Positions 9,852 to 19,083 of a DNA stretch of 64,000 bases are shown in pieces. Position 1 is the stretch's first letter. Every line of letters begins with the position of its first letter. This DNA comes from Adineta ricciae. Taxonomy: Eukaryota > Rotifera > Eurotatoria > Adinetida > Adinetidae. The stretch lies in NCBI GenBank assembly GCA_905250025.1, contig CAJNOJ010000074.1, positions 186,001-250,000 on the forward strand. Reading direction: 5' to 3'. Made by a program: the position numbers and the translations under genes. Under the pieces are notes generated by a model, which searched no databases, was not told the DNA's origin, and saw only the letters and a list, made by a program, of their open reading frames with translations.

Positions 9852-11168
9852 GATCGATCCGGTTTGTTTTATTTTCTCATTGGTCTTGTCCGGCAAGTGA
9901 TGCGTTGAAAGAAAATGCAACTGAATTCAATCAATATTCGTCTCTATTGCATTCGATTTTTTTAGGATTTTGTTTTCTTTCTCTCGTTTTTCTTGTGAAT
10001 AATTCATTGATTGAACTTGGAAAACAACCTTCTCCGATTATTTCGAAGATCTGTTAGCAAAAAAAGTCCAAATTATTTCGTTTTTCTGTTTCAGATTCAC
10101 TTTATTTTCGATATCTTCTGTTCAAGTTCATCTAATCGTAAGTTCCTTGTTCATTGCGTATATGTGCTTTTTTTCGCATCGAGTGCCCTAGATATCATAT
10201 CTGTACATGAAGACAATCACTGCCTTTATACGTGTCCGTATATGATTGCGAGATTTGCTTCAGATGAATTTCTCAGGCAATCGACAGAATTTGAAGGGAA
10301 ACTGACGAAAAGAAAATATATAATTTTTTTCTTTATCAACGTGTCAGAATCATTGCGAGACATATTTCGATCGAATATGTATGTTGTTTCAACTACCATC
10401 AAATTTTCCAACCTTGCAATTAACAACTGATACATTCCGTTTGCTCATTGACACGACTAGGATACGGACACATTGAAATGAAATTTTCTTTAAAACCGAC
10501 TAATTTGATTGAGAGAAGAAAGATATCTATCATCTTTTGTCTTCATTTTACGCTCACAATTCGAATGTAAATGTCCCCGTCATTTGTTATATACGAATTG
10601 TATTACATCATCGACAGATAAGAATTTTTGTCATTGAAGTCAATGGTATTTAATCTATGAGAATCAACGAATGAGTTATTTTCATTTTCTTCTTCTCCTG
10701 TCGTGTTTATTTTTTGATTAGAATAAGCATTTTATTCTCCTTGACTTGTGTATTAAGACAGACGACCTACTTTTCCCGGTTGGACAAAAGAAACACGATA
10801 ACGACGATGAAGAACGATCATCGTGGTACTGACCCTCATCTCTCTCGCTTGCCGTTTTTTCTTCTCTTTTCATATATGTAGACGCGCATATGTATGTATG
10901 TCGGTGTTGTAGCGACGCGAGTATGCACTCAGTATTCTCCTCCGCTTCTTGTCGCCTACGCTCAATATGGGTACGCGTGAATCAGCCGACATTCGTATTC
11001 TTTTTCTATTTCTCTTCATTTTTTTCCTTCTCCCTCTTTGCGCTTGCAAACGAGTAGTGTTAGGGGCGTCAATTGTGTGTACATATACATTGATAGATCG
11101 AATTTGCTTCTTTACCTTCTCTTTCTCTTCTTTTTTTTAGAATGATGATGTTTTAAAAAGTCAAAATC
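9852..11168. other. Intergenic/UTR, no supported gene
   Basis: A 139-codon open frame at 10011-10430 has no start context, domain or splice partner and looks like 3' UTR. The stretch 10850-11140 is TC-rich and ends in a strong polypyrimidine tract plus AG at 11139-11140, 29 bp before the next ATG. Confidence 0.5.
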
Positions 11169-12521
11169 ATGGATGAAAAACAAACCAATCCAACTCTGAG
11201 ACGATATCATCTGTTGAGTACCGAGCATCACGAGGACGAACAACAACAACAACAACAACGAATGCTTTCAAATCACCAACAGATTATTCCCATTTCGATC
11301 GATCATCATTTAGCAACACCTACTACTCTGTCAAACAAACGACGGCGTTGTTCGATAACCACTGAACCAACACTCTCCTCGTATTTACCATCGAACACTC
11401 CCGATTTTATTTACCACCAGAATCTACCAATAACAATAGCACGAGGTGCTCGAAAACGATCAGCACAGGACGATTTAGATACTGATGCAACACATCATTT
11501 CCTTCGCGACCATGAACACTATGTAAACTAGTTCACTTTCGTTGTTCGAATTTGATCTCATCTTGCTCTTCTTCTAGGCTCATAAACGCGCTCGATACGA
11601 ACCGTCAAGTAATACAGAACTAGAAAATCAACCTCCGCATGCAACATTGAAACGGCGGTCATTACACTTTCAACATCAACAAGAGCAAAACTTTCTTTCA
11701 ACAACATGGGACCATCTCCGAGCGTCCAATGAAATTCCATTATTGTTTAGTAACATTCTCCCAGCATCACCACGGTTAAGTACGACGACGACAGCGGCGT
11801 CATACCATCGAACAAATAGTGCGCCAAATCACGAGCAGACTTTATCTGATCATTATTCGTCATTATTAACCGAACATCATCATCATTCTTCAATTTTCCA
11901 TAGTAATTCATTGATAACATCGAATCAAAAGAGTAAATAAGAAAGTTCTTGTTGATCAACAAACTCATTTACTCGTTGTTGATAGGTACAATACCAAAAT
12001 CATCGAAAACAAATTTACGTTTACTCTCACCTCAATCGAATGGTTCTAGTCCACTACGAGCAACAAATTTCATACTTGACAACAAACAACAAACAACACT
12101 TCGCACAGGAAATATTTCTCCAGCTCACTCGGATTCATCGAGTGAATCAACATCGACTTGCTCATCCGATGAGCAATTGCATCATCATCACTATCACATT
12201 CACCAGCCACAACCGTGGCGTTCGTATCGTGAACGTGAAAACTACGAACAATTGCTAGATCTAGCCGAGAAACTCTCCGACCCGAATCGTTTTAATCAAG
12301 TGGACGTTCAACAGTTCTTTTCCTATCGTTACAAAATATGCACATTATCCTCAAAACAAACAGCCTGCGTTATTTGTATGTCACATTTTAAAAATGGACA
12401 ACATATTCGTGTACTTCCATGTCAACATGAATACCATTCGAAATGTATTGCACGTTGGTTTACAATGAATTCATCGTGTCCTATATGTCGTCGCAATAAT
12501 TTCCTCTCCTCTTCTTGCTGA
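11169..12521 (+). CDS. RNF38/RNF44-like RING-H2 E3 ubiquitin ligase
   Basis: Exons 11169-11522, 11578-11932 and 11986-12521 give 414 residues. The first 300 residues are low-complexity (poly-Gln, His, Ser, Thr) with KR clusters (NKRRRC, HKRARYEP), as in nuclear RNF38/44. The C-terminus has a helical segment YEQLLDLAEKL followed by a RING-H2: CVIC, then PCQHEYHSKC, then CPIC. All eight zinc ligands are present (C3H2C3). The combination of the pre-RING 'LLDLAEKL' helix and this RING matches RNF38/RNF44 in vertebrates; general E3 function through an E2 is family knowledge. Its RING resembles that of the next gene downstream. Confidence 0.88.
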
Positions 12522-13564: not shown

Positions 13565-14903
13565 ATGATGACAGTCACAGAAAACACCGTTTCCCAAATG
13601 TCCCAGATGATCGGTGAGTTGAATGATAGAAGGCATGGAAATTTACAATAAATCTGTCATCTCTATTGTTCTGTAGATTATGCAAACTATGCAAGTAATC
13701 GATCATATCCAACTGCATACGACTATCGTCATCATCAGTATCCTTGGGAAAAGTCGAACTATCCGACGTATACCCCAAATCAATCGACTTCCTTTTCAAC
13801 CGGTACTATTTCGACAATGAACAAACCTCAGCCATCGTCGTTTGATACAATTCCAAATTTAAACAATACGAATCCAAACTTTTATCGCCGTCATAGTAAA
13901 TATTAAAGGATTCTCTACTTTGGAGATAAAATTTCCATTCTGATATCTAGCTGAATCGACTTTACCAACGTCAACGTCGATCTATCCGTCGACAACCAAT
14001 CAATCTTCGACAATTCCATTTCCTTATTCACATCCATCATCAGATTTATTTTTCGGATGGAATAATGGTTCATCTTTGATACGTACACACAGTGCTAGTT
14101 CATATGCAGATCATCCCGGATCATGTATGTCATTGAATTCTGATTTTCAGTGTGGAAAAATCTAACTGAATATTCATTTCAGCTTCATATTCGTCCTATA
14201 ATCCAATGTCAAGTTTAAATGATAAAACTTCTGTGAATTCACGTATACCGTCGATGTCATCGACAAACACATATCCACCGTTTTTCAATCTCTTGCCTGC
14301 AATGAATTTTTCGTTGCCGTTACCTTCGGCAGCATCGGTGCCAATATCGAAACGATCGGTTCCGTCCAAAATCAAACGTCCACGTGTAACAGCTCATATT
14401 CGTACTGAAATTCTTAAATTAAAGACTACTAAACCAACAGTATTTGTTTGGGAAATTCAACAGAATCTATTACAAAATGGTATTTGTACCGCCCAAACAT
14501 TACCAAACGTAAGTGAATTTGTTTGTTTCATCTTAGACTATAAATCTTGTTTTCCCAGGCCGCTGCTATTCAACGAGTTCTTAATGAATCTCCAAAAGCT
14601 GTCGCACCTGTCAAAGAAGAACCCAAAGTAAATGTCAATCTTCAGACAATATTTAATACGTCATCTTCTGTTACGATTTGCCTCTCCCCATCGCGTTCTC
14701 CAACGTTATCCAATGGCGAAACAGGTTCTGAATGTTCGATTTGTCTCGAAAACTATCGTAGTGGTCAAGAAGTTAGTATCTTGGCATGTTCACACGAATA
14801 TCATTCATCCTGTATTGGAGAATGGATGTTGAAAAATCGTTCGTGTCCAATGTGTCGAAAAGATATTCATAATCAACCGCAATTCGTTACATTGCTTATT
14901 TGA
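13565..14903 (+). CDS. Pax RED-subdomain / RING-H2 fusion protein
   Basis: Exons 13565-13613, 13677-13895, 13951-14124, 14183-14508 and 14559-14903, all in phase, give 370 residues. Residues 1-205 are low-complexity (Tyr, Ser, Thr, Pro, Asn). Residues about 208-268 match the C-terminal RED subdomain of Pax paired domains: PRVTAHIRTEI, FVWEIQQNLL, NGIC, LPN, then AAAIQRVLNE after the intron. Residues 315-355 form a RING-H2 with CSIC, CSHEYHSSC and CPMC, all eight ligands present. The last exon contains both the end of RED and the whole RING in one frame. There is no PAI subdomain and no homeodomain. RED binds DNA in Pax proteins and RING-H2 recruits E2 enzymes, so a DNA-targeted E3 ligase is the simplest inference. 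The start is the first of two ATGs right after an acceptor-like site. Confidence 0.85.
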
Positions 14904-15141: not shown

Positions 15142-17846
<2,705 letters not shown>

Positions 17847-17847
17847 N
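17847..17847. other. Single undetermined base at a sequence junction
   Basis: One N. To its left is DDX41 coding sequence in mid-domain; to its right is non-DDX41 sequence leading into a Pax6 gene that lacks its 5' half. It most likely marks an assembly join. Confidence 0.8.
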
Positions 17848-18142: not shown

Positions 18143-19083
18143 ATTTATCTGATGAAAGTAGTGACAGCAAGATTGGTATGAGAGATGATCCAAATGAAAA
18201 TGACGAGTCTGTAGAGAAACGTTTGAAATTAAAACGAAAATTACAACGGAATCGAACATCATTCACTCAAGAACAAATCGACGCATTGGAACAAGGTACT
18301 TGTTTTCATCGCTTTCACAATCAACGAATCGCAACATTTTTCTCCGTTCTTAGCTTTCAATAGTACACATTATCCAGATGTTTATGCACGAGAAAAACTT
18401 GCATTGAAAATAAGTTTACCCGAAGCTCGAATTCAAGTAAAATAGCAGATCATTCTCATGACTATTGATTCGAACTTTGCATTCATCAATGTAGGTATGG
18501 TTTTCTAATCGTCGAGCAAAATATCGCCGAGAAGATAAAGTCAAAGGCCGTCGACAACATCAACAACAAATGATGAATGACATGGGTGAAAATATGCGCC
18601 CATTAGGTTCAACACCGCCGCCATTACCACCTCCACCATCCACTTCTTCCTCTGGTTTACTGTATCCTCAAGTATTTCCCTCGAATAATCCTTCCATGCC
18701 GAATGATGCACACCCTCAATCTCACCAATACGGAACATTTGGTTCTGGCTTCGGTGCTGCTATGGCATGCAGTTCAAGTGGTTACCCAACGTTTTTTCCC
18801 AGTAAGACTTAATTGCTCTTTATATCCTCAAGGAATTGTAATCATTTCCCTTTTTCTCTCCTCAGCTTCAACACGTGGTTACGATGGACTTAGTCCATTT
18901 AGCACACCTTATAATCGTTCTTGTCCAACTTATCCGTCAGGCATTCAAACAAATCTCTCTCCAGGTAAGAAGAAAAGAAACGCTAGAATATGAAAATGTT
19001 TATCTTTCTCTGTAGATCATATGAAAAATATGTCAGCGTATGGCGGTGCTCCACATCTTTGGTATTCACCGATATTGCCGTGA
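18143..19083 (+). CDS. Pax6-like homeodomain protein, 5' part absent
   Basis: Exons 18143-18295, 18354-18436, 18495-18801, 18866-18964 and 19016-19083 give about 236 residues, entering in mid-codon after the acceptor tcctctatttag. An acidic linker (DLSDESSDS) precedes the homeodomain, which starts at [16 protein letters not shown] and continues [19 protein letters not shown] and [14 protein letters not shown]. Serine at homeodomain position 50 and these blocks are Pax6-type. The tail is rich in Pro, Ser and Tyr and ends YSPILP, like the transactivation domain of Pax6. No paired domain occurs between the N at 17847 and the first exon. An ATG at 18052 is open into the exon but crosses the acceptor. 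It may be an internal, paired-less isoform or simply a truncated gene. Confidence 0.9.

Follow-up and report, generated by a model that had tools for sequence, protein, structure and literature searches.

Results

A Pax RED subdomain and a RING-H2 finger share one reading frame

We analyzed a window of 64,000 nucleotides, positions 186001–250000 of contig C74 in an assembly of 130.5 Mb (other contigs of the assembly are designated in the same way). Its plus strand carries, in this order, a RING-H2 gene, a five-exon gene that we call RED-RING, a DEAD-box helicase gene that we take to be DDX41-like, and the 3′ half of a Pax6 gene (Table 1). The exons of RED-RING, at 13565–14903, are joined across predicted GT-AG introns of 63, 55, 58, and 50 bases into a single 370-residue frame. 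The start codon in exon 1 is putative, and in the copies on C66 and C179, where exon 1 offers two candidate donors, we chose the one that keeps the frame.

Table 1. Features of the RED-RING locus and its neighbors (window coordinates)
Feature	Position	Strand	Description
Upstream RING-H2 gene	11157..12521	+	Open frames of the 3′ part; RING about 12363-12491; PF13639 54.1 bits
RED-RING exon 1	13565..13613	+	Starts MMTVTENTVSQ; open frame, GT donor; similar first exon in 4/4 copies
RED-RING exon 2	13677..13895	+	S/T/Y/P-rich N-terminal region; GT-AG sites and phase conserved in 4/4 copies
RED-RING exon 3	13951..14124	+	Carries stretches common to both subgenomes
RED-RING exon 4	14183..14508	+	Basic arm SKRSVPSKIKRPR and first part of RED; PAX HMM 30.6 bits alone
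RED subdomain	14377..14582	+	Residues 213-264; interrupted by intron 14509-14558; PF00292 35.7 bits
RED intron	14509..14558	+	50 bases, GT-AG, phase 0, at the PAX6 intron 6 position; same place in 4/4 copies
RED-RING exon 5	14559..14903	+	Last RED helix AAAIQRVLNE, linker, RING-H2, tail QPQFVTLLI, TGA stop
RING-H2 finger	14730..14858	+	Residues 314-356; PF13639 52.4 bits
DEAD-box helicase gene	15142..17847	+	Limits approximate; PF00270 and PF00271; broken by a one-N gap at 17847
Pax6 3′ half (homeodomain and C-terminus)	18144..19083	+	tblastn/blastn to the Pax6 of C179; Homeodomain 77.9 bits

An hmmscan of the joined protein matched residues 213–264 to the Pfam PAX profile (PF00292; 35.7 bits, E 9.4e-9, profile positions 72–124 of 125) and residues 314–356 to zf-RING_2 (PF13639; 52.4 bits, E 6.1e-14). 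Set against the Pfam cut-off of 22 bits, the PAX score is well above background. A sequence-only reading of this DNA had proposed that the end of exon 4 (...QTLPN) and the start of exon 5 (AAAIQRVLNE) together complete the RED helix-turn-helix of a paired domain. The PAX score bears this out: it is 30.6 bits for exon 4 alone and rises to 35.7 bits when exon 5 is joined, so the junction completes the RED. The same reading had exon 5 running without interruption into a RING-H2 with all eight ligands, and the frame is indeed free of stops through a C3H2C3 finger whose eight ligands are invariant in all four copies of the gene that we found in the genome. Because the last RED helix and the RING lie in one unbroken exon, the fusion does not depend on splice prediction.

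Equally well founded was the claim that one protein combines RED and RING-H2 and has neither a PAI subdomain nor a homeodomain, an architecture that hmmscan recovered in 4/4 copies, each with a PAX match that identifies the RED subdomain of Pax proteins. The sole PAX stretch in the window protein is profile 72–124, so the full bipartite paired domain (PAI plus RED) is absent from it, and a genome-wide PAX search matched profile 72–120 or less at the four RED-RING loci. No homeodomain family was among the 17 Pfam families listed for the four proteins at E ≤0.1. A helix-turn-helix of the Tc1/mariner type was rejected, as the Pfam scan at E ≤0.1 returned 0 transposase families.

The basic arm and the RED together hold 11 K/R against 3 D/E among 64 residues, a charge that suggests nuclear localization and contact with nucleic acid. 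In the RING, residues I317, W345, P353, and R356 are invariant in all four copies; we take these to be the E2-contact and linchpin positions. The invariance of the ligands and of these positions makes an active E3 likely.

The remainder of the protein is less telling. Two N-terminal stretches, both within window 13677–14124, are shared between subgenomes: RRHTES.LPTSTSIY, which spans the exon 2/3 junction, and GWNNG.SL.RT.SAS. A genome search with the N-terminal 210 residues at E 0.01 gave 10 matches, all to the gene's own copies. A search of viral contigs with the alignment of the four copies turned up 64 stretches that fit a pattern and 0 relatives; it tests little because both patterns derive from the N-terminus. 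The linker in exon 5 is poorly conserved outside SSVTICLS (residues 292–299), which is invariant in 4/4 copies and is possibly a short binding motif; it fits the consensus of a SUMO-interaction motif poorly, and that identification was set aside. Structure prediction for exon 5 alone, run without an alignment, gave a mean pLDDT of 39.6, which has no bearing on the fold either way.

Four copies of the gene have been kept under purifying selection

A six-frame search of the genome with PF00292 yielded 43 matches, four of which are of the RED-only type (the window, C56, C66, and C179). At each of these four loci a RING exon follows the RED exon, and the five exons join into an open frame free of stops and frameshifts. 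The encoded proteins can be aligned over their full length, and all four retain the RED, the RING, the frame, and the splice junction. Since the RED-only match at three further loci also runs into a RING exon each time, the arrangement is neither a chance juxtaposition nor a one-off assembly error, and a real fused gene is close to certain.

The copies form two close pairs. Protein identity is 95% between the window and C56 and 57–58% between the window and C66 or C179; overall dS comes to about 0.10 inside a pair and 1.42–1.47 across pairs. In the four between-pair comparisons, dN/dS is 0.16–0.23 for the RED, 0.03–0.05 for the RING, 0.26–0.31 for the N-terminal 210 residues, and 0.22–0.23 overall; synonymous sites in the linker are nearly saturated, and its dS was not computable in two of the four. 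Within pairs, overall dN/dS is 0.20 and 0.35, values that come from few changes. Identical residues between the window and C179 number 42/56 in the RED, 94/202 in the N-terminus, and 20/42 in the linker. A between-pair dS of ~1.4 together with low dN/dS means that the gene is old and that purifying selection acts on both RED and RING.

The four-copy pattern, the pair distances, a GC content of 36.2%, and two loci matching PF01555 (N6_N4_Mtase) are consistent with a bdelloid, perhaps Adineta ricciae or a close relative, and on this reading we infer that the gene predates bdelloid tetraploidy. According to passages of PMC8885841, N4CMT occurs in all the major families of bdelloids, whereas the monogononts and the other eukaryotes sequenced lack it.

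The RED subdomain points to a Pax4/6-type or eyegone-type parent

The best match of the RED in the PDB is human PAX6 (6pax, 36.6 bits, E 4.6e-8), followed by Prd (32.6), Pax-8 (31.6), and Pax-5 (30.2). Identity gives a less clear picture and does not favor Pax6: the window RED is nearest to the Pax3/7 of this genome (22/55 residues) and to PAX6 (21/55), and it shares 19/55 with the neighboring Pax6 (18–19/55 when C179 is included), and the RED of C179 is closest to Prd and PAX8 at 22/52 each. The best tree of 18 rows and 56 columns joins RED-RING with Pax3/7 and paired (80/82) instead of with Pax4/6, a grouping that carries a long-branch warning.

Intron position is more informative. The RED-RING intron is in phase 0 at LPN^AAAIQR, where ^ marks the intron. 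Four loci that we classed as Pax4/6 type by eye, from their sequence and homeodomain (C179, C116, C37, and C11), have a phase-0 intron at the matching codon (IPS or LPS^VSSINR), as does the RED-homeodomain locus on C814 (LPN^VSAIHR). The codon is uninterrupted in the eight other loci that we read (C17, C25, C243, C74 at 43 kb, C174, C75, C125, and C21) and apparently also, judged by the hit table alone, in C60, a second C25 copy, C56 at 298 kb, and C66 at 207 kb. Human PAX6 intron 6 begins after c.357, that is, after codon 119, according to a passage of PMC9863980. The phase-0 position therefore indicates that the RED came from a Pax4/6-type or an eyegone-type gene; the shared intron fails to separate the two. 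A paired box of either type would be the source, with the neighboring Pax6 as the simplest candidate.

The genome holds other reduced Pax loci. At C814:15000-21697, about 19.1–19.8 kb, lies an eyegone-like gene with a RED and a divergent homeodomain (PAX 42.2 bits, Homeodomain 58.1). Since this RED-plus-homeodomain gene exists separately, we rejected the idea that RED-RING is a misread eyegone. C13:494600-495900 and C1:661600-662900 each show a PAI-type half and then a homeodomain, and we saw no RED between the two, the reverse of the RED-only arrangement. A Pax1/9-like paired box at C21:564600-565700 is degraded, has stop codons in frame, and is probably a pseudogene.

Whatever its parent, the recognition helix of RED-RING has diverged. 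It reads AAAIQRVLNE where PAX6 has VSSINRVLRN, ending in NE rather than RN, and departs from PAX6 (IPSVSSINRVLRN to LPNAAAIQRVLNE). One of the PAX6 residues lost is presumably R128. Extracts of PMC7599253 describe a change of PAX6 R128 to Cys as a RED mutation that was found in a patient and is also carried by the Leca2 mouse. The changed helix residues make binding at ordinary Pax targets, and thus simple competition there, uncertain, and the DNA binding of RED-RING may be altered or lost relative to PAX6. That a RED acts alone is not firmly established.

The RING and the RED may both have come from adjacent genes

Querying the genome with the RING of the chimera gave at least 85 matches at E ≤0.001 (a minimum, because scoring was confined to the best candidates): its own four copies, the four copies of the upstream RING gene (55–56 bits), and 77 others at no more than 44.2 bits. 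The reverse query with the upstream RING gave 21 matches at E ≤1e-6, comprising its own four, the four RED-RING copies (54.6–56.9 bits), and 13 others at no more than 48.0 bits. The two fingers, 46–49% identical, are thus reciprocal best non-self matches among those found in the genome. Human ZNRF3, however, scores 56.1 bits against the chimera RING, level with the neighbor's 55–56 bits, and because of this the case for descent from the neighbor rests on genome rank and position and not on a tree. Descent from the adjacent gene is likely, though not proven. The upstream gene differs in that its last open frame does not match PAX and its RING is followed by another tail.

Position is consistent across the genome on the upstream side, where the RING gene precedes RED-RING in all four copies. 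Downstream, Pax6 follows in two of the four, on C179 and, across a gap, in the window; the C56 and C66 contigs end first. On C179 Pax6 lies on the same strand, 3.75 kb downstream of RED-RING, with its paired box at 93431–93787 and its homeodomain at about 92.3–92.6 kb. The Pax6 of the window lies beyond the single N at 17847, and no paired-box exons were seen there. C56 has an N at the matching site in the helicase, after which it diverges from the window and apparently continues as helicase, with tail-like frames; for this reason, we regard 17847 as an assembly gap, one in which the tail of the helicase and the paired box of Pax6 are probably hidden. A Pax6 without a paired box was rejected on the same ground. 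The adjacency of Pax6 in the window depends on the join across this gap, and the join is supported at the block level by the order of matches beyond it, where 21.8 to 31.0 kb of the window follows C179 from 86 down to 77 kb.

C66 ends 1.9 kb past the RED-RING gene. Read in the same direction, C116 starts within the corresponding paired exon of Pax6; it is probably the continuation of C66. The C56 contig ends ahead of any Pax6; following its helicase, about C56:464965-465240 encodes a small helical protein rich in lysine, glutamate, and alanine, which looks LEA-like by eye and had no Pfam match at E 0.01.

Discussion

A RING ligase that may be steered by a Pax subdomain

The explanation that best joins these results, to which we assign a probability of roughly 0.5, is a five-exon gene that arose by local fusion and encodes a nuclear RING-H2 ligase steered by its RED. 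Before tetraploidy, a local duplication or fusion would have joined the RED end of a paired box to a copy of the neighboring RING. The basic arm and the RED would direct the protein to the nucleus and, once there, to DNA or Pax-bound chromatin. At that site the RING would recruit an E2 and ubiquitinate a chromatin protein or transcription factor, the leading substrate candidates being Pax6 and its partners. The sequence-only reading had suggested a DNA-targeted ubiquitin ligase or a dominant competitor of Pax targets, functions that are both inference. The parts of our reading differ in strength. From the conservation of the finger, we regard it as quite probable that the protein is an active E3; that the RED steers it to DNA or to Pax-bound chromatin has a little less than an even chance. 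Passages of PMC10011063 report RNF8 as a PAX6 ligase and cite TRIM11 as another, although the authors' test in COS7 cells showed no PAX6 decrease with the latter. A more specific proposal, that this ligase made from its own neighbors would go to Pax-regulated enhancers and degrade Pax6 or its partners, and so act as a linked Pax6 antagonist, is rather unlikely.

Other accounts of the gene share parts of this evidence. In the main rival, the RED would no longer read DNA and would instead form a protein-binding helix bundle that chooses substrates for the RING, namely, Pax proteins or their partners. The recognition-helix positions are altered relative to Pax6 (ending NE vs. RN) and yet AAIQR.LNES is conserved in all four copies, but the basic arm ahead of the RED is conserved in all four copies too and the PAX HMM match covers nearly the entire RED; this account is possible, if doubtful. 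It is improbable that the gene encodes an ordinary RING ligase in which the RED segment is a relic of little function. Such a relic would accord with a RING that is far more tightly constrained than the RED by dN/dS, but the RED is itself clearly constrained and better conserved than the N-terminus and the linker.

With neither PAI nor homeodomain, the RED could still occupy half-sites, and the protein might then be a dominant competitor that sits on Pax sites and recruits nothing, its RING serving structure only. Against this stand a RING that is the most conserved part of the protein, with the residues expected of active ligases, and RED helix residues unlike those of Pax6, so that we give such competition very little credence. 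The end of exon 4 (LPN, phase 0) also matches the Pax6 exon that begins VSSINRVLRN about 4 kb downstream on C179, and the RED exons could in principle be spliced to the homeodomain exons there as well, yielding an eyegone-like RED-homeodomain isoform; this transcript would, however, have to leave out exon 5 of RED-RING itself and, in the window copy, the helicase gene as well, and its chances are slim indeed. Slimmer still are those of an artefact, be it faulty assembly, a pseudogene, or two genes wrongly joined. Although a one-base N gap lies nearby, at 17847, the RING and the final helix of the RED occupy a single unbroken exon in 4/4 copies, the two pairs lying at dS ~1.4, and the joined frames have no stop or frameshift. 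We therefore return to the locally fused, RED-steered ligase as the preferred reading.

Relation to known proteins and significance

RED-RING has in common with the eyegone class a RED without a full PAI, but eyegone and twin-of-eyegone possess a homeodomain, which the RED-RING protein lacks, and to our knowledge they contain no RING. Passages from the literature on this type describe an intact RED, an N-terminally truncated PAI, and a homeodomain. Pax6 resembles RED-RING in its phase-0 intron at codon 119, supplies the best PDB match, and is the downstream neighbor, but its PAI and homeodomain have no counterpart in RED-RING, and RED identity is limited to the 21/55 and 19/55 residues noted above. 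With the RING-H2 ligases Arkadia, RNF38, RLIM, and ZNRF3 the protein shares all eight ligands and a RING near the C-terminus, and its finger scores 49–56 bits against solved members; we know of no Pax-type DNA-binding domain in any of the four. UHRF1 and RAG1 are ligases that also bind DNA, and in each a DNA-binding module and a RING are combined in one chain. Their DNA-binding domains are unrelated to RED, however, and the comparison is one of working principle and not of shared descent.

The earlier reading knew of no RED-RING protein, and we likewise found no Pax-RING protein by title or start of abstract among the matches listed in the openly licensed PMC literature for this architecture and for rotifer Pax. 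In passages of a lophotrochozoan Pax survey (PMC5333810), eyegone homologues are named and the word fusion is absent. RED and RING domains are each known; what is new is the way they are combined, together with the age and the probable local origin of the combination.

Pax genes rank among the best-conserved developmental regulators of animals, and the losses of Pax domains that we know of all leave a DNA-binding transcription factor. Here the DNA-recognition half of a Pax protein now belongs to what is likely a ubiquitin ligase, present in four copies with its probable donors adjacent. If the Pax6-directed proposal were true, an antagonist of Pax6 would be built in beside it, and both subgenomes would have retained it from before bdelloid tetraploidy onward. 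We predict that the RED-RING gene will occur in all bdelloid families. If the RED still reads DNA, the gene would show that nature has already directed a ligase with a domain taken from a transcription factor, and its neighbors would allow one to reconstruct how a regulatory protein was born.
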